Assembly (NCBI GenBank): GCA_002104935.1
Contig: MCGT01000011.1
Location: 620,001 to 684,000, forward strand
DNA: 64,000 bases
Origin: Hesseltinella vesiculosa
Taxonomy: Eukaryota; Mucoromycota; Mucoromycetes; Mucorales; Cunninghamellaceae
Direction of reading: 5' to 3'
Part shown: piece after piece, positions 43,083-53,100 of the stretch
Position numbering within the stretch: position 1 is the first letter of the stretch
Layout: every line of letters starts with the position of its first letter
Notes under the pieces: model-generated
What the model saw: the letters and a program-made list of their open reading frames with translations, nothing else
The model's database searches: none
What the model was told of the DNA's origin: nothing
Program-made: the position numbers and the translations under genes

Positions 43083-45596
43083 ATGCCAACCACCCTGGGG
43101 CTTGCTGGTCGCACCAACAAATCGAGGCCTTGCTGTCCTTCTAGTCGCACCCTGTGGTTCACCTACTTTCGTCATCTGCTGGCGCCATCGCCGGCCAGCC
43201 GACCATTCTCCACCACATCCATCCAGTCGAGACATGCTTTACCCTCACCTTCGCACCAACCACCTCAGCGCCTGCATGATCGTCGGCGGAATCTTTGGCG
43301 TCCAATGTCATCCGCCTCTGCATCATCGTCAGAATCGTGCGACAAGTCTAACTTGCCTGGGGCCGCCGGCAAGTCACAAAAAACGTTGCTGCATCCCCGA
43401 TGGTTCAAAACCACCAGCGATTTCCAGCGCCAGCTCGATCTGCTCCGGGAGCAGCGTCATCAGCTGGACGACCACTTTGTCTTCAAATCGTTGCGGTCCT
43501 TGCTGTACAATGTCGCCAACAAGGATCACCGCTGTGCCTGGAAGGTCTACCGTGCCATGGTCGATCTGCACGTGACCAGCCAATTAGGCGCCAATCACTA
43601 TGGTCGACTGCTGAACATCCTGAGGCACCACCCCAATGGCTCCAAGCTGCTCATGACCCTCCACGATGACATGCAGCGTGCCCAAGCTGCTGGCCAACTT
43701 ACGATCAGCGCACAGCATTACGAGCAGCTCTTTTATGGCCTAGCCCGTCAGGGCAATGTCGCTGACCTGTACCGGCTGATGGTTCAACTGCAGCAGCACC
43801 AACCTCAACTGCTGCAGCCTGTCCACTACACGTCTCTCGCCACTGCCGCCAAACGCTTGGCCGACCTCCCATCCTCCATCCAAGTGGCGCAACTGCTGGT
43901 GAAAGCCATGCACACCGGTGTCTCTCTGGAGCCGCGTGCATGTGTCATCATGGTCAGCGCCTTGGCTGCGGACATGGAAGCCACCGTCGATTTCCTCTCC
44001 TCCATGAAGCAAGCAAACCTCTTCTCGGAAACCCCGACCACCTCCTTCACCTCCGATCACCCAGCGGCCTCTCCCTCTGATGATACCCGGCCAAATACTA
44101 CCACCTCCATGCCTTCTGCGACGTCGCCTTCCTCACGATCCTCACTTCGAACCGCAAAAGACCATGATCGATTCAACGTTCACATGTACACCTCCCTGAT
44201 TTCTGGCCTGGCCAAGAACGGCGACGCTTTTAATGCCAAACGCCTCTGGGATGAGATGACCAAGCTAGGATTGCGCCCTACGAAGATGACCCATGCTGCC
44301 ATGGTGGATGCCTTTGGCCGTGCCGGTGAACTGGGCGAGGCGCTGGAATGGATCCAACAGTACACCTATCAGCACCATGGCCGCCTCGACAAGTACATGG
44401 CCACCTCGCTCCTGGCCAACGCGCTTCACCACCGGCAACTTGCTTTTGCAAAGTCCACGCTTGCCTTTTGGGAAAAGGAGTTCAAGAGCCAGCTGCTGGA
44501 AGACATGGATGCCCAGTATTATTCGGTGGCGATGTGGGTCAAGGTCATGGACGATATGCAGCAAGCCCAGGTCTTTTTTGAAGACATGTACCGAAATAAC
44601 CCGCAGTTCGTCGATTCAGTCATGGTCAACCATTTGGTCAAGGGCTATGGCAACCAACTTCAAAATGACCGCGTCCTCTCTTCTTACGCCATGCACAAAA
44701 AACTGAAACTGGCTCCGGACGACAGAAAATACTACAAGCTACATGATCCGGACCACTACTTGGTGGATGCCCTCTTCAAGTGTCGGGACGTGCCATCTGC
44801 GCTCTCTGCATTTGTTTCCATGCGACAACGGGCCGTGCCTGACGACGTCACCCTGGCCATGGTGGTCCGTGGCCTGCTCATGAACGACGAAAAGGAGATT
44901 GCTTGGAAGCTTTTTAAATTGCTCAAGGCCGACGGCTTGGAGCCTAACCTGCACGCATACACAAGCATCTTGAGAGCATGCACACCTTTGCATGGCTATA
45001 CCAAAGCCGACAACCACCAGCCTGGCATGGAAGACACCGACAGTCACGTGGCCTCTTCCACCGTCGTCCCTGACTTGGTCCAGTCTGCTCTTTACCAAGG
45101 CGTGCCCTGGCATGACCGCCATAATCGCTCACTCCCACGGACCACAACCTCCTCTCCGTCCGCCCCACCTCTTACCCCACCCCTGTCCGACGGCAAACTC
45201 GGGCCGACACAAGCCTATATCCTCTTCCGCAAAGTCACTCAATTCCACCAGCCCAATGTGTATACCTACACCGCCTTGATCTCGTGTTTTGCCAAGGACA
45301 ATATCGCGCGGGCCATGGATGTGTTCACCTTTATGTGCTCCGATGGGGTGCGACCGGTGCTGCCGACGTATGTGGCCCTTCTGCAAGGCTGCGCCATTTT
45401 TCGTTCTGGCCGCATGGCCATGTTGGTTTTCAACCATTTGCAGCAGCAGCCTGATCTTGAACCCGATGACAACGTTTGGCATTATTTACTCAAGGCCCTG
45501 GTGCGATCCCGTATGGACAAGAAAGAAATCGACCGTGTCGGTACCATGATCCGTGCCACCAAAGCCAACACTTCATCATCGACCACTTCCTCTTAA
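43083..45596 (+). CDS. Large pentatricopeptide repeat protein, probably mitochondrial
   Basis: One uninterrupted frame of 837 residues. The first 75 residues are rich in Arg, Ser and Thr and nearly free of acidic residues (for example RTNKSRPCCPSSRTLWFTYF), as in mitochondrial presequences. PPR units include MYTSLISGLAKNGDAFNAKR, THAAMVDAFGRAGELGEALE, AYTSILRACTP and YTYTALISCFAKDNIARAMD, separated by Ser/Thr/Pro-rich linkers (about residues 320-360 and 660-700). Such proteins bind specific organellar transcripts. It lacks introns although most neighbours are intron-rich, a feature also of the PPR segment at the left edge. The start is the first ATG of the frame and yields the presequence. 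A related role to known fungal PPR factors is likely but the ortholog is not identified. Confidence 0.88.
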   Translation: MPTTLGLAGRTNKSRPCCPSSRTLWFTYFRHLLAPSPASRPFSTTSIQSRHALPSPSHQPPQRLHDRRRNLWRPMSSASASSSESCDKSNLPGAAGKSQKTLLHPRWFKTTSDFQRQLDLLREQRHQLDDHFVFKSLRSLLYNVANKDHRCAWKVYRAMVDLHVTSQLGANHYGRLLNILRHHPNGSKLLMTLHDDMQRAQAAGQLTISAQHYEQLFYGLARQGNVADLYRLMVQLQQHQPQLLQPVHYTSLATAAKRLADLPSSIQVAQLLVKAMHTGVSLEPRACVIMVSALAADMEATVDFLSSMKQANLFSETPTTSFTSDHPAASPSDDTRPNTTTSMPSATSPSSRSSLRTAKDHDRFNVHMYTSLISGLAKNGDAFNAKRLWDEMTKLGLRPTKMTHAAMVDAFGRAGELGEALEWIQQYTYQHHGRLDKYMATSLLANALHHRQLAFAKSTLAFWEKEFKSQLLEDMDAQYYSVAMWVKVMDDMQQAQVFFEDMYRNNPQFVDSVMVNHLVKGYGNQLQNDRVLSSYAMHKKLKLAPDDRKYYKLHDPDHYLVDALFKCRDVPSALSAFVSMRQRAVPDDVTLAMVVRGLLMNDEKEIAWKLFKLLKADGLEPNLHAYTSILRACTPLHGYTKADNHQPGMEDTDSHVASSTVVPDLVQSALYQGVPWHDRHNRSLPRTTTSSPSAPPLTPPLSDGKLGPTQAYILFRKVTQFHQPNVYTYTALISCFAKDNIARAMDVFTFMCSDGVRPVLPTYVALLQGCAIFRSGRMAMLVFNHLQQQPDLEPDDNVWHYLLKALVRSRMDKKEIDRVGTMIRATKANTSSSTTSS

Positions 45597-46525
45597 AACC
45601 ACTCTAGATTCCAATTATTTTTTCCATGCATCCCACCCTTTGCATCTTCAATAAAGCCTCCCTCTTTCTCTTTTCTCTCTCTTCCTTTTTTTTTTTTTTT
45701 TTTTTTCATTTTGAAAGTGATTAACCAAACAATTTTGGTAAGCTTGCCAAACGGAAATCTGCAAAAAAAAAAAAAAAATAGGCCCAAAAAAATTGACAGG
45801 ACCTTCGGAGCTGAAAACCAATTTCCAGATTCTTCAAAAACGTCACACAGAATCGACACATGATTGACAGTGAACAAGACATCCTGACAATGACCACAGC
45901 CCTCATTTGTTCCATTGTCATAAACAAAAGAAAGCATGCTTTTTGGTTTCTAGAAGGCTGGATCCATTGAACACTGTTTAAGCGAATAAAAAGAGGATGA
46001 TCACAGCCTCACGTTGGACAAAAAAAAAAAAAAAAAGGCCGCCTAGTTATTTTCTGTGCTCTCACAGCACGGGAAATGCGAAATGGTGAGCCAATTAAAA
46101 ACGCTTTAATATTGATAATACTAAAGTGAGGAAGCGCTATTAAACCAACGAAACGAGGTACAAAAATACCATGAAGATTAGCACTGGTTCATGAAGGCGA
46201 CGTGAATGGAGAAAAGAAAAAGTGAGAGTTGCTGCATGTACTTTTTATTTTAAGTTCGCATTCAATGGGTTATATTTATTATCAATACAAAAATGAATAC
46301 TTTCCAAGGTAATAAAAATTGTAGCAAGGTCAAAAAAAGCAGGCAAGAAAAACAACGAGCGGGGTTTATTGAAAAGGGCGTGCCGCGTTCAAAGAGTTCT
46401 TTTTCTTTCTTTACTTTTTTTTTACAGCCTTGCTTCAGCATTTATTTACATTTAAAATGGGGCATCATATAAGAAGAAGGCAATTACGAATAGATGCAAA
46501 TAAGACTTGGCTGTATAACTTGAAA
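45597..46525. other. Upstream flank of the Fanzor gene, no supported gene
   Basis: A/T-rich sequence with several long homopolymers. A minus-strand frame (45593-45937) contains GCGHCQDVLFTVNHVSILCD but no family signature. No terminal inverted repeat or target-site duplication matching the 3' flank was found by eye. Upstream exons of the Fanzor gene may be hidden here. Confidence 0.4.
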
Positions 46526-49500
46526 ATGAGGAAATATTACATTCTCAAAGGTAAATCCTATTATTGACCTTGTTTGTTTATTTTTTAAAACGCGTTGCTT
46601 CATGATCTCATTCTCTTCCATTAGGTTTAAAGTGTACTTTGTGCCATGAATTAGGGCACAAGCGAGCAGATTGTCCTTTCAACCGTTAGTATTGATCGCC
46701 CCTACATTGCCAGTTTCTAACATTTACTTTTAAAGGTGGCAAACGAAAGTCCAAAACCCAGCTCAAAAGGGCCAACAAGCTTCTACGTAAGGCTGGCTCC
46801 ATGGCCCGCAAGGAAAAGCAGAAGAACCCTGATGGGAAAAAAAGGGCCAAGAAATTTAAGTTGAAGGATCTCCAGTCTCTCTTGCTTGGTACCAATTTCA
46901 AAACCCGTGTTCGCAAGATATCTCTTTGTCATGCTCTTAACATGGCCCAAGACAATATCCAAGACCAACGCCAAGCAAAGATGGACGTCCAAGAAACCAT
47001 CCTCCTATGGGTCGATCACATCCGCTATGTCTTTATCTGCGCCCAGTCGTTCTTCAACTATTATGTTCTGCATGTCATGTCTGAGGGTTCTGTGGTCAAC
47101 GATACTGTATTCTGTAAAGATTTTTTCTATGGGATCTGCCAACTGGTGACTGGCAAGGCTGTGACCTCCCCCAACTCGAACATACCTGATCCTACAGCAA
47201 TTTATCACCATTACCAGTCTCTCTTGGGTGACTGCCGCTTCGAATTATATTGGATCAAGGGTGCTAGTAACATGATTTCTGAAATGGCGGATGAGTTAGC
47301 CCAAATCAATCTCTTGGCTGTGACTGAACGTTTTGAAGAAAAGTGTATCAAGTATATTCGCTTTCGCTTGGTCAACACCCTCAAGGATCAGCTGTCTGAA
47401 GGCCAGGTCAGTAAGAAAGAGAGAGAAAATAAGAAGGTGCGAGTTGCTCACTTTTTTTTTTTTTGACAAAGGAAATGCCAAAGTCCGGTTATATTATGAA
47501 CGCATGCCAGAATATTTACGACACTGTCACCCGTCAAGAAAAAGTTGAACCACTGTCAGAAAATAGCCCCGATCTCTTGCGAACGATCGTCTCAACATTT
47601 ATCTCAACCCTGAACTTTGGTCCAAGTCCAGTTACGCTGAAGGAACTTACTGCAAGTCCTGGAACGTATTTGCAAGCACTTTACCGACTATTGCAAGAAA
47701 TGGAACAAGGCAACGACCTGGAACCATCTGAGATGGGGCATGACGATGTGCATGATCAAATGGACACAATCACCATGAAGCTCATACTATCATCTAACAT
47801 GGACTATCAGGTGCTGCCTCGTCGCTGTCGCCAAAGAGTATTCAAGGGCATGATGCAATTGCTGGAGCACCCAGACAATCCAATTGACATCACCTGGAGT
47901 CTACCGGAAGAATTTAAGACCTGGCTGTCAGATCTCGTCCTTGGCCTTCGTGTAAAGTTGGCAAACTCCAAGGCGAAACTGGCCGGCACTGACATATCAG
48001 CAGACCTTTGCTTCTCCTCCTCCACCATGAGGCAATCCAAGTCAACAGCCCTCTTTTCCCTTGTGCCGACTCTGTCCTTTCGTCGCCGGTTTATCACTTT
48101 GGATGCCTACTCATTTCGGTCAATTCTCAAGCAAGCCGGTATAAACGTGACTGTGCCGTCGGGTGACCATTCTCATCCTTATATCCGCCTTGCTCGCGAT
48201 GCCACTCTCTTTTTCACCTACCTGGACTTTCAGAAGGCTCGCCTTCGAAAATGGTAACTGAGTAACATTGTGATGGCAGGAATCGCGACTGATTTTTTTT
48301 TAGTACTGCCGCATTTTTGCATTATCCAACGCTCACTGAAACTGACAGCGACAGTGATGATGACGCTGGTGGTGCTGATCCCGATGCTGACAACGGTGAT
48401 GCCGAAGATGATAGTGGGAGTGTTACTGATGGAAATGCTAATGACATCGGCAACCCTGCTGACGGTTCTGATGGTGCTCACAATACCCCATCGGAGGGCG
48501 AAAGCGACGATGGTGATCAAGATCAAGGCAGATTTAATGACGAGACAACACGCCAGGACGATGGCAGCGATATTCAATTGACTGAAATCGATAGTAGCGA
48601 TGAAGAGGAAGAGGATGATCCTGCCTCCTTGGTATTTTCCAACCGTGTTCGCACTGATGGGCTTCAATTGGAATTTATCTATGGCAAGCGCACACCCCAA
48701 ATTGAACTTCCCGATCTCGAAATGGACGACTTGCATGGTGAACCACAGGAACGTATGCAGCTGTATGGAGTCGATCCAGGACATAGTGAGCTTTACACAT
48801 CTGCTCAAGAAGACAAGCACCTCCCGGGAAATGATCGCACTGCCCTGGGCACTGAGCACAGCAGCAACAGCACCAATGGTTGGCATGGTCGGTACATGCG
48901 ATTCTCGAATAATGAATGGCTATCACTCTCTGGTCGACATGGGCGCTCATGCATTCGAAAACGTTGGCTCAAAGATTCTGGCATGGAGGAGATCCTCACG
49001 CGTATACCACCAGCAAAAACTAGTCATCCTGACCGCTTCATTCAGCGCACCATCTACGTATTCCAACACCTTGATGACATCACCGAACATTTTGCTGACG
49101 ACTATACCCTGCATCGGTTCCTGGACTATTGTGGGGACAAGAAGATGTTCGCAGAAGTCGTTAACCACTTCGTCCATGGCGGTAACAAGTACAAACACCA
49201 GAAGGATGACTATGATAGGTATGCACTACACAAAAAAAGGTGTGATGCCTGGACTAACTTTTTTTATAGCCGCAAACTTCCAGTGATTGCCTATGGTGGT
49301 GCATTGTTTGCGCAAACCCGTAGAGGGAAAATGTCCACTCGCTCCGGAAAAGTGTACAAAGCACTCAAAATAGCGGAAAAGCAAGGGTTACTTCTTGTTA
49401 CAAAAACAAATGAATACAACACAAGCAAGGTAAATCATGAGGAGAGGGAAAAATGAAGCGCAAAATGACCTTTTTTTTCTATCTCATTTTTTTAACAGGT

Positions 49501-49786
49501 CTGTCCAATGTGTGATGAAAAAGACCTTGAACACAAGACCGTCGGTGACCCATTCCTGCGAGGTGCAAGCATGTCTTTGTGGTCGGTTCTACAGTGCCAA
49601 CACTGTAAAATCAACTGGGACAGGGACAAGCTTGCGGCTTGGAATATGTTGCGTCTTGGCAAGACTGCCCTCCAAGGATTGCCTCGCCCAGCGTTGTTCT
49701 GCCGACCACGATCCACCTCCACCGACCAATCATCACCACACCAACAAACTTCAGCAGTTGCTTCTTCGTCTCGGGACCCTCACTAA
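46526..49786 (+). CDS. Fanzor: eukaryotic TnpB-like RNA-guided nuclease, apparently intact
   Basis: Six exons (46526-46550, 46625-46684, 46736-47406, 47472-48253, 48304-49429, 49499-49786) give 983 residues, or 966 if a 51-nt in-frame intron at 49219-49269 is removed. Order (983 numbering): CCHC zinc knuckle CTLCHELGHKRADC near residue 12; basic segment GGKRKSKTQLKRANKLLRKA; helical wedge/recognition region; acidic D/E/S linker of about 90 residues; RuvC-I YGVDPGHSE (Asp670); RuvC-II-like strand PVIAYGGALF lacking the usual Glu; TNEYNTSKVCPMC with a candidate relocated Glu883; zinc finger C890, C893, C921, C924; RuvC-III NWDRDKLAAWNM (Asp931). Fanzors use a guide RNA to cut DNA and derive from transposon TnpB. 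No transposase is adjacent. Codon use is less C-rich than the flanking genes. The start is tentative: ATG 46526 is the first in frame after a stop at 46454. Confidence 0.82.
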
Positions 49787-50197
49787 TGAATATCTTTACC
49801 TCGTTGGCCAAAAAACCAGCTTATTTACGTAAGCCTGAGGCAGAATGTGAAGAGGAAATGCTGATTTTTTTTTTGGCAGGTTTGTCATGAAAATGAATAA
49901 AGTAAGTTTAGATGAAAATAATTCAAGCGCCTGATTGGCTACTAACATTGGATTTTTTTCTGTAGTGTCACAGCCAGTTTTCTCTTTTCTTTTTCTTTCT
50001 GTTCTTCTGTTACTTCTTTTTTGAATTGTATACCATTGCACCTGGCTCTCCTTATTTTGAAAAGACTTAGGGGAATCTTGGTTTAGTTTATTGCATTTAT
50101 TTTATTGTTTTATTATTATTTTTTCTTTGCCTGTTACATCCTTTTTTTTTTTTTCCCTTCTTTTTTTTTTTCCACCACTCCCTCTCATTAATTCTTC
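49787..50197 (+). other. 3' flank of the Fanzor gene; candidate guide (omega) RNA region
   Basis: About 400 nt of T-rich sequence between the Fanzor stop and the next start. It holds an intron-like GTAAGC...GGCAG stretch (49829-49880) and AATAAA at 49896. In known Fanzor loci the guide RNA often overlaps the 3' end and its flank; no structure was demonstrated here. It also contains the promoter of the DIP2-like gene. Confidence 0.3.
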
Positions 50198-53100
50198 ATG
50201 CCAGACCCACTTGATGATCTTCCAGCAGATCTTCAAGAGGAACTTCGTATCCTAGAGCAAGAGCTGGAAGAAGGCGACCTGACACAGAAAGGCTATGAAA
50301 AGAAAAAGACAGCCCTGCTGAACTCGTTTTTACAATCCAATCCTGGAACACCACTGACCGACGCACCACTGCCTCCTCAGCCATCCAACGGCACTTCACC
50401 TGTTGTCACCCGTACTTTCCGACCAACCGAAGGTGAATACTACCATCAGTCACCTGCCAGCTGGATACCGACAGATGAACAAGATGACCCTGCGCCTTCT
50501 CCTAATCCTGCTGACTTTGAGCCTGAACCATCTGCTGCTGATGCCATGGACTTTTTGGACTTTTTGCCTTCACCGACCCATTCCCCTGCACGAGTCCCTT
50601 CACCTCCACCACAGTCTGCTTTACCACCGCCAACACCCTCCATCGCACCTGCACCATCCCTTCCTGCTCATCAGCCCGCCCGCCTCGGCCTTCGCCCCCT
50701 TCTTACCGACCGCAACACCCACAGCCACAACAACAGCCTTGGCCCTATGCCCGTCCCATGCCACGTCCTCCCTACGGCAATCCGGGCATCATGCCTCCGC
50801 GCCCCTCCTATGGCGGTCCACCACCTATGCCTCCATCGCATGTGTATTCCGGCCAACGACCTCCAGCCATGCACCCTTCCTATCCTGGTTACCGACCCCG
50901 CCCTCCCGCGACGCAGTATCCGAACCCTCCTGCCCGTCCACCCTACTATCGGCCGGGTCCCCCAAGTCAACCTGCACCAGCCATGCACCAACGCACTTCG
51001 TCTATGGACTCTTCATCTTTGTCGGTGGATCGGTCCCTCGCCTCCACCGCTCGCCACAGTGCCGAACCTCTGGAATACGACCCAGTTTCCCCTGGTGGGA
51101 TGCGCCAAAAAGAAACGGATTGGGGTAAACATAGCACATCAGCACATCGGCTGCGATTTCTCATCTTTTCTTCTCCTTTTTTTTTTTTTTTTTTCTTTCT
51201 TTCTTGGTCTTGCCCTTTTGTAGAAACAACAAGTCAACGACAAGCACCATCCGGCCGTGCCCCATCCATCATGTCCAACGCCACCGCAAGACGCCCCACG
51301 ATGCCCGTGCGGACCGCCGATTATCGTAACCGTGGCCGCAGCCGCTATGGTGACAGCTATTTGGCCACCAGCTTCAAGGCCATCGAACCTGCACCCTTTC
51401 CCACCGTCCGTTGGGATGATCCATATGAGCAAATGATGGTGGCCGACCTTGCCGGACGACAGATGCGACCATTGCAGGCCCGTGCTCTCCCCGCCACCCA
51501 AGAAGACGCGTTTGAAAACCTGGCCGCGATCCTTCGCTTCCGCGGCACCAACGAAGCTCACCGACTCGCCACCGCCTTCTCCGCCGTCGATGCTAAAGGC
51601 AAGGATCCCGTCAGCCTCACTTGGGATAAACTGCTTGCCCGGTCCGAGAAGATATCGTCCATGCTGCGCGATACCAAGAAAACCGGGCTGCAAGTCGGCA
51701 GCCGCGTCGCCCTGCTGTACCGCAAAGTGGAAGTCCTCGAGTTTATTGTATCGTTGTTTGGCTGCTTCTTGGCCGGTATGGTGGCCGTCCCCATCAACTC
51801 TGTCGATGATCTGTCAGAAATGGGCTTCATCCTCAACGTCACCAACACCAACCTGGTCTTGACCACCGACTACAACCACAGCCTCCTGTTCAAGGATCTG
51901 CAAGCCCACAATATTGACCTACCGACCGGCCTGGACTGGTGGCGCACAAATAACTTTGGCACCTGGTACCCTCCTAAGAAAACCAAAGAATACCCACCCA
52001 TCAAGCTACCCGAGCTGGCCTACATCGAATACGCCAAGGCTATCAATGGCGAACTGAAAGGCGTGGCTATCACCCACCGCACCCTCATGTCCGAAGGCAA
52101 GTTGTATAAATCTTCGACAATCAACAACCAGGTCACCATCAACGATGCCGACAACTCGCTTCAGATCACCCCCAAGCAGCAGCACTATTTTGACACCATT
52201 GTCTCGTACCTTGAGCCTCGTCAGCAAATCGGCTTGATTGTCACTGTGCTGTGCTCCGTCTTTTGTGGCAATCACACTGTTTTCACCCCTGGCGCTATTG
52301 TCAACTCACCACCTGCTTGGATCTATGTTATTTCGAAATTCAAAGGTAGGTATCCATTGAAAAAATAAGAGAGAGCAGAGAACAAAAGAATGCATGGTCA
52401 TTGATGATGGTGCACCTTCTTTTTACAGCCTCGGTTGTCCTAGCAGATTATCCGGCCATGACCAAAATCACCCATTATTACCAGCAAAATACCAAAGAAG
52501 TACAGAACCACAGCAAAAAGGTAGCACCAGACCTTTCCTCGTTGCGATACCTGTTCATCGATAGCTGTGTGGTCAAGCCTGATGTGAATAGGCTGATAGC
52601 CGACAAGCTGCTCAGTCCATTGGGTAACACCGATGACCCAATGGCTGTCGTGTGTCCTGTTGCCTCTCTCCCCGAATACGGCGGGATGCTGCTCTCATTC
52701 CGCGACAATCTCGGACCTGCCCAGTTGGATGATTACGACGATCATGGCCACCGCTCTGTGTTTGCCGAAGGTACCTCGAGCGACTACTGGAATTGTGCCT
52801 TGGACGCCGATGCCCTGAAATCCAACAAGGTTGTTGTTGTTGCCGCTGGCGAAGCTGCCAATCGCATGCAATCCGAATCCCGTACGCTCTTGGTCGGGTC
52901 CTTTGGCTTCCCAATTGCTGAAGGTATGTAGACCACCGGGCTGCAATGGAAGGTGAGACAGGTGATTGAGACTGATTTTTTTTTTTTTTTTTGTGAACAC
53001 ATAGGGACGGTGGCAATTGTTGATCCAGACACAACGACATTGTGCCCTGCCGACACCATTGGTGAGGTGTGGATTGATGCGCCTTCGATTTCCGGTGGCT

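Follow-up and report, generated by a model that had tools for sequence, protein, structure and literature searches.

Fanzor1 was described in 2013 from Rhizopus, Phycomyces and Mucor, and Fanzor1-only elements, including MuDr-like ones, are known from these moulds (PMC3627910). Several of the elements (ROr, PBl, MCi) have no transposase of their own, and one family has fuzzy 5′ ends and no terminal inverted repeat (TIR) (PMC3627910). In Spizellomyces punctatus, the source of SpuFz1 (PDB 8gkh and others), the SPu-1 element is present in 17 full-length copies, nine of them intact, and encodes the 633-aa SPu-1-1p in a single open reading frame between 33-bp TIRs with putative TA duplications (PMC3627910). 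PpFz1 of Parasitella parasitica, another mould Fanzor1, has a solved structure and cuts DNA in vitro (PMC11423790). Here we describe a 3.9-kb element of Hesseltinella vesiculosa that is probably a recently active, non-autonomous DNA transposon with an intact Fanzor1 gene aboard. The copy under study lies in a 64,000-nt stretch of contig MCGT01000011.1 (assembly GCA_002104935.1, positions 620,001 to 684,000), called the window below, whose coordinates are used throughout.

A preliminary description of the window had reported a Fanzor gene that was apparently intact after splicing, and we confirm both points: the seven-exon splice of 46526–49786 on the forward strand yields 966 aa with no internal stop. 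The gene and its protein features are as follows.

46526..46550, + strand: exon 1; an alternative upstream in-frame ATG lies at 46457
46625..46684, + strand: exon 2, containing the zinc knuckle
46633..46674, + strand: CCHC zinc knuckle CTLCHELGHKRADC, residues 12–25
46736..47406, + strand: exon 3
47472..48253, + strand: exon 4
48304..49218, + strand: exon 5, with the acidic linker (about 48307–48630), the WED TDG motif and RuvC-I
48773..48775, + strand: catalytic Asp670 (YGVDPG), aligned with SpuFz1 D383
49219..49269, + strand: intron 5, 51 bases, in frame
49270..49429, + strand: exon 6, with the alternative RuvC-II glutamate
49412..49414, + strand: catalytic Glu866 (NEYNTSK), aligned with SpuFz1 E541
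49499..49786, + strand: exon 7, with the TNB zinc finger and RuvC-III, ending in the stop TAA
49502..49606, + strand: C4 zinc finger, C873–C907
49625..49627, + strand: catalytic Asp914 (WDRD), aligned with SpuFz1 D606

All motifs named in the preliminary description are where it had placed them. RuvC-I YGVDPGHSE and RuvC-III NWDRDKLAAWNM are both in the spliced protein, the finger is C-x2-C-x27-C-x2-C (C873, C876, C904, C907), the knuckle is CX2CX4HX4C (C12, C15, H20, C25) and the acidic linker has 37 D/E and 2 K/R in 108 aa. Asp670 keeps its number; the residues previously numbered Glu883 and Asp931 are E866 and D914, the earlier figures being 17 too high because the in-frame intron 5 had been read as exon. 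This intron is stop-free and has GT, CTAAC, a pyrimidine tract and TAG. The 17 residues it would encode are lacking in P0001, an NCBI protein of the same species, as well as in the relatives P0002, P0011 and P0017; P0003 and P0012 have different, longer inserts near its position. The gene is real and beyond chance, because six of its 17 copies are frame-intact with GT-AG at all six introns and show purifying selection. GT-AG sites are near-universal across the copies, except for GC donors in L019 and L022 and the lack of two introns in L025. In P0001 (DM01DRAFT_1338899), which was deposited for one of the copies, the segment containing the RuvC-I Asp is missing, probably through a gene-model error, so that automated annotation hides the catalytic site.

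Sequence comparison makes it close to certain that the protein is a Fanzor1. By itself it matches the TNB domain PF07282 (E 5.2e-8; 33.4 bits against a cut-off of 26.3), and this profile search, a check suggested in the preliminary description, places it inside TnpB/Fanzor; its matches to NCBIfam TnpB models are all below the models' own cut-offs. A two-row profile of the window protein and its paralogue (A1), searched against PDB, gave SpuFz1 (E 0.0079), mimivirus L79 (0.2) and GtFz1 (0.26) as the top three of five matches. With a profile of 17 relatives that includes same-species sequences and leaves out the window protein (A2), SpuFz1 was matched from WED to RuvC-III at 6.7e-15, followed by GtFz1 (4.1e-11) and L79 (1e-5), with TnpB at 0.005, so that by these E-values the two Fanzor1 proteins rank ahead of both L79 and TnpB. 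The 18 matches after the top three (E up to 0.053) are named Cas12, TnpB/OrfB or related nucleases, and with E up to 1 the same names or Fanzor account for 22 of 24, the other two being a ribosomal PPR protein and a small zinc-finger protein. In these counts we take LaTranC and an entry named simply 'Transposase' to be related nucleases. PpFz1 is not named among the 24. Together, the PF07282 score and the profile matches to Fanzors rule out that the protein is not a Fanzor.

The active site agrees with this assignment. Read by eye, the A2 alignment sets the catalytic residues of SpuFz1 (D383, E541 and D606, as numbered in PMC10432273) opposite the RuvC-I Asp, the glutamate and the RuvC-III Asp, in that order. 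The Fanzor pattern D-X(125,275)-[TS][TS]XX-C4 finger-X(5,50)-RD (PMC3627910) is represented by D670, T869-S870, C873/C876/C904/C907 and R913-D914, with 198 residues between D670 and T869 and 5 between C907 and R913. Fanzors and pro-Fanzors are also recognized by a RuvC-I DPG and a glutamate six residues before the first CxxC, and Fanzor1 by a WED 'TDG' motif (PMC10711439); here these are VDPG, E866-YNTSKV-C873 and T630-D631-G632. SpuFz1 likewise has the WED TDG, RuvC-I DP, pre-finger glutamate and RuvC-III RD, in collinear order. The window gene differs from SPu-1 in its 966 aa, seven exons, CCHC knuckle and acidic linker, and its element has no clear TIR or target-site duplication (TSD). Protein searches found relatives in Apophysomyces, Mucor flavus and Parasitella and no full-length relative, the latter possibly because the method was word-based. 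One of them, DFQ30_003989 of Apophysomyces sp. BC1015 (P0002), shares 37% identity with the C-terminal query over 99% of its length and has all the catalytic residues and PF07282, but is a 442-aa prediction with a short linker and, in the deposited model, no knuckle. Whereas PpFz1 has a cyclophilin-binding RuvC insertion (PMC11423790), the additions of the window protein are N-terminal. Since Fanzor1 was already known from Mucorales, the window protein adds a further member to a known enzyme family and is not a separate kind.

The gene is not solitary and lies within a mobile element with these parts.

46060..49969, + strand: whole mobile element, window copy; left boundary uncertain within 46060–46068, right boundary sharp after ...CTGTAGTGTC
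46060..46068, + strand: left tip, which varies between copies; the majority of those having a left end read TCTCNCNC; may derive from the element or from the target
46068..46100, + strand: conserved left end CACGGGAAATGCGAAATGGTGAGCCAATTAAAA, common to non-autonomous relics elsewhere in the genome
46303..46347, + strand: length-variable place, 45 bases between two shared blocks
49966..49969, + strand: last four bases TGTC, then host DNA; identical in all 15 complete right ends

Counting near-identical copies, as the preliminary description had proposed, placed the element at 17 dispersed places in the genome (27.05 Mb, 85 contigs), 94–99% identical and counted from the 3′ half of the gene. They comprise the window copy, 15 others at 94–98% (one cut by a contig end) and a 415-base piece at 99% that belongs to an internally deleted copy. 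Alignments among the copies begin and end at the limits given for the whole element. A domesticated single-copy host gene is ruled out by this dispersal. At the length-variable place, the window copy and L025 have 45 bases between the shared blocks and 13 other measured copies have 179–480 (two of the 17 were unmeasurable). Upstream of the gene, (GA)n expansions of differing lengths occupy one place in L013, L019, L020 and L022.

The right end was matched at 16 places, one of them partial, and all 15 complete ends finish in TGTC followed by copy-specific DNA, the next base being A in 10, G in 3, C in 1 and T in 1; the right end of L016 is replaced, and L024 runs off its contig. Where a left end is present, TCTCNCNC in most cases precedes (C)CACRGGAAATGCG; in the relics L049, L051, L053 and L057, similarity to the element begins only at about (C)CACGGG. 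A 24-base core of the left end, allowing up to 3 mismatches, has 15 genome matches (reversed control, 0). Short non-autonomous elements or relics with this left end are L049 (C34), L051 and L057 (C45), L053 (C39), L054 (C29) and L052 (C10). In L049 and L057 the left end is joined to a different right end, the one at C12:116.8 kb, and L051 carries a 27-base piece of that type. The C12:116.8-kb end adjoins a TNB match which, because its score falls just under the cut-off (25.4 against 26.3 bits), is called a probable second Fanzor in degraded form.

When the six intact copies are pooled, their pN/pS comes to 0.31; pairwise dN/dS is 0.24–0.42, at low dS (0.03–0.06), and judged by these rates the copies have been under purifying selection. 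By region, from pairwise and hence non-independent counts, pN/pS is 0.10 in residues 1–70 (the zinc-knuckle end), 0.37 in 71–513, 1.28 in the acidic linker (514–618) and 0.13 in the WED-RuvC-TNB nuclease half (619–940); no rate was obtained for the final 26 residues. Each of the six copies retains all three catalytic residues. The nuclease is likely to be active, and the suggestion in the preliminary description that it may be so is plausible from the selection pattern. A paralogue on C12, assembled from exons that we joined by eye, has 33% overall identity, a knuckle with other spacing and no linker. Because of this distribution and the regional rates, a functional role seems likely for the knuckle, whereas the linker has the look of a lineage-specific, disordered insert unconstrained in sequence. 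The preliminary description had listed both features as possibly new: the knuckle, being present in the paralogous family, is not peculiar to the window copy, and the linker shows no sequence constraint. Knuckle residue E17 of the window copy is G in the five other intact copies, and the only Pfam match to the knuckle is a sub-threshold zf-C2H2_10 (19.3 bits against a cut-off of 26.2). The paralogue belongs to a divergent Fanzor family at two places (L055 and L058) that are 98.7% identical; some 1.2 kb upstream of the gene lies a second TNB match, below threshold, and the right end of this family seems to be ...AATAAAGTGTATRAGT.

The least expected feature of the element, and its most interesting loose end, is a predicted splice site at the right terminus.

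49829..49879, + strand: predicted 3′ untranslated region (3′UTR) intron X (GTAAGC...TTGGCAG); donor changed in L013 and L022
49880..49901, + strand: invariant 22-nt micro-exon GTTTGTCATGAAAATGAATAAA, which can form a GAAA-loop hairpin
49902..49965, + strand: predicted terminal intron Y (GTAAGT...TACTAAC...CTGTAG)

Intron Y combines GTAAGT and TACTAAC with a pyrimidine run and TAG, its 3′ splice site lying 4 nt inside the element boundary, and the full pattern has a single match in the window, with 0.01 expected. The micro-exon has 0 differences over 15 copies (L016 and L024, without a right end, excluded). Nucleotide diversity (pi) is 0.046 in the 3′UTR exon before it and 0.018 over the right 90 bases; intron Y, at 0.026, equals the other introns, so only the micro-exon stands out. 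A TTGGCT-branch-acceptor-TGT block occurs at 12 genome places, 11 in the window family and one at C12:116.8 kb (reversed control, 0). The end at that place reads GGTAAGC...TGCTAAC...CTCTAG/TGTG, and is mostly common to L049 and L057, with the last bases changed. All five intact copies that have the right end keep GTAAGT, TACTAAC and TAG. Among the ten other right ends, donor, branch or acceptor is changed in L019, L021, L022 and L023; an association of the terminal splice signals with an intact frame is only suggestive, because the remaining six are unchanged (two with CAG). The C12 paralogue family has 3′UTR introns, but its element ends 63 nt after the last one, which rules out a common terminal-intron right end there; the terminal splice site is therefore not general in the genome.

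RNA folding gave little at this end. A spliced 39-nt tail folds at z −2.49 (p 0.05–0.26 with random partners), and joining the micro-exon to TGTC makes a longer hairpin; unspliced stretches of equal length fold nearly as well, and at the longest length better (−8.9 versus −8.2). With 12 left bases, the spliced-tail control from C12:116.8 kb forms no structure; with 16 or 24, it has p 0.06–0.33. A splice-made hairpin is, on these models, only a lead. Over 45900–50300, Rfam gave one match (E 0.47), in the coding part and far below the gathering score, and there is no tRNA in the window.

We propose that the element is transcribed through its right end, that the 3′ RNA up to the boundary would serve as omega-RNA scaffold and that the adjoining host DNA, the usual source of a Fanzor guide, would supply the guide. 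The Fanzor would then cut guide-matching DNA beside a short adjacent motif, chiefly at the empty insertion site, and repair from the occupied copy would keep or spread the element, while movement would be provided in trans by a transposase encoded elsewhere. These steps draw partly on what is known of TnpB. For Fanzor1 elements, ends and duplications have been predicted to form part of the guide-RNA scaffold (PMC10711439).

Several results weigh against the family being such a transposon with a working Fanzor1. The window protein alone has no PDB match at E up to 1; 11 of the 17 copies are broken, truncated or abnormally ended; and six right-end stretches, folded unspliced, do not outperform their shuffles (z −0.60 to 0.16), so that no RNA scaffold is evident by folding. 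The element encodes no transposase, and there is no TIR among its 25 longest repeat pairs. Short CACT...AGTG-like ends give a weak local terminal match (p 0.046, mononucleotide shuffles, L012-type left end), a third-base match for a duplication is likewise weak (7 of 10 scored copies, p 0.022; the other seven, in which an end or a clear register was lacking, omitted), and a simple search of one 6-kb PF02992 region found no matching CACT/AGTG pair. A register scan of the copies showed no prominent uniform TSD. PF02992 (Transposase_21), which we take to be EnSpm/CACTA, has seven matches in the genome and 0 in 14 control genomes. That superfamily is marked by CACT...AGTG inverted termini and a 3-bp duplication. 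Because of the CACT...AGTG-like ends and the seven PF02992 matches, EnSpm/CACTA is the best superfamily candidate, a best guess and not a proof; we found no report in the open-licence literature linking Fanzor to CACTA. The absence of an adjacent transposase, observed in the preliminary description, stands; its novelty does not, as this is ordinary for Fanzor1 elements (PMC3627910). Among the mould elements, the family with fuzzy 5′ ends and no TIR resembles ours; by their descriptions, the ROr, PBl and MCi elements differ in being MuDr-like with 9-bp TSDs or in having 6- or 11–12-bp TSDs (PMC3627910).

Two other accounts would explain the spread of the family differently. The Fanzor might be a non-cutting passenger whose open frame reflects only the recent spread of one master copy, as the 11 defective copies and the low dS among intact ones could suggest; we consider this quite unlikely, since the low pN/pS of the nuclease half and of residues 1–70, against 1.28 in the linker, is hard to obtain without protein-level selection, and the catalytic residues are all kept. 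Rolling-circle movement of the Helitron2 type, with a precise 3′ and a fuzzy 5′ end, is known for Chlamydomonas Fanzor1 elements, in which full-length copies have no TSD and most of the 5′-truncated ones have TSDs of 7–19 bp (PMC3627910). The exact right ends and variable left tip of our element fit it, and L018, which has no first element bases and is flanked by a 14-base duplication, recalls those elements. Twelve bases of this duplication lie within the scored window, where unmatched control pairs reach at most 10, but only L018 beats such pairs; L009 (7), L014 (8) and L021 (10, a T run) do not. The hairpin upstream of the 3′ end is not seen in the folds made, and insertion is not fixed after TTTT. 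We hold Helitron2-like movement to be an unlikely account, though less so than a passenger.

Two further accounts concern the terminal intron. It might be an exon trap or stealth device unrelated to any guide RNA, in which splicing at the right end, of the element's own RNA or of a host RNA with the element inside it, would soften insertions into promoters or 5′UTRs. Consistent with this, the 3′ splice site is 4 nt from the boundary, a 5′ splice-like ATG/GTGAGC stands near the left end (by eye, a boundary at 46060 would leave 30 nt) and a sense gene has its start codon 228 bases beyond the end of the window copy. The left GT is, however, absent from three relics (L053, L054 and L057), and an orientation bias of insertions could not be demonstrated from open frames and coding scores; we hold this account possible but doubtful. 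Far less probable, in our judgement, is that the guide RNA would be assembled by the spliceosome, removal of intron Y joining the 22-nt hairpin exon to TGTC and the host flank. If it were, scaffold and guide would be contiguous only after splicing, which would choose between mRNA and guide RNA, and the element would be a spliceosomal counterpart of bacterial IStrons. In IStrons, TnpB guide RNA and splicing compete. IStrons are mobile elements that double as introns, making insertions silent in RNA (PMC4227781); theirs is a bacterial group I self-splicing intron, whereas our element has a predicted spliceosomal-type signal at its right end. Among the papers listed in a search of the open-licence literature, none, judged by its entry, concerns a terminal splice site in Fanzor elements. 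The terms 'intron' and 'splic' are absent from the main texts of PMC10711439 and PMC3627910; 'intron' is absent from PMC10432273 and PMC11423790, with 'splic' in one reference only in the former and, in the latter, once for cyclophilins and once in a reference.

Hesseltinella vesiculosa appears rich in Fanzor relatives. Its genome has 89 TNB (PF07282) matches at E up to 0.01, which fall into several groups by score and frame, with about 15 in the window's family. A tandem array recognized by eye (L056:1-760, unit like GGTTACCATTTTCACGCYGTCTCATTGGTTTARCAAAGAGAC...) lies about 3.5 kb before another Fanzor remnant. The neighbours of the window copy are:

43083..45596, + strand: PPR-repeat protein gene upstream of the insertion
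50198..52368, + strand: open frames that carry DMAP1-binding and AMP-binding domains and begin 228 bases past the right end of the element

On the preferred reading, a recently active transposon carrying its own Fanzor1, an enzyme group with few tested members gains a multicopy Fanzor1 family that is young and apparently functional, comes from a Mucorales mould and offers several intact natural variants within one genome. Were the terminal splice site in use, Fanzor RNA would be spliced to the host flank; this would bear on a step poorly known for Fanzor1, the making of guide RNAs from transposon ends.

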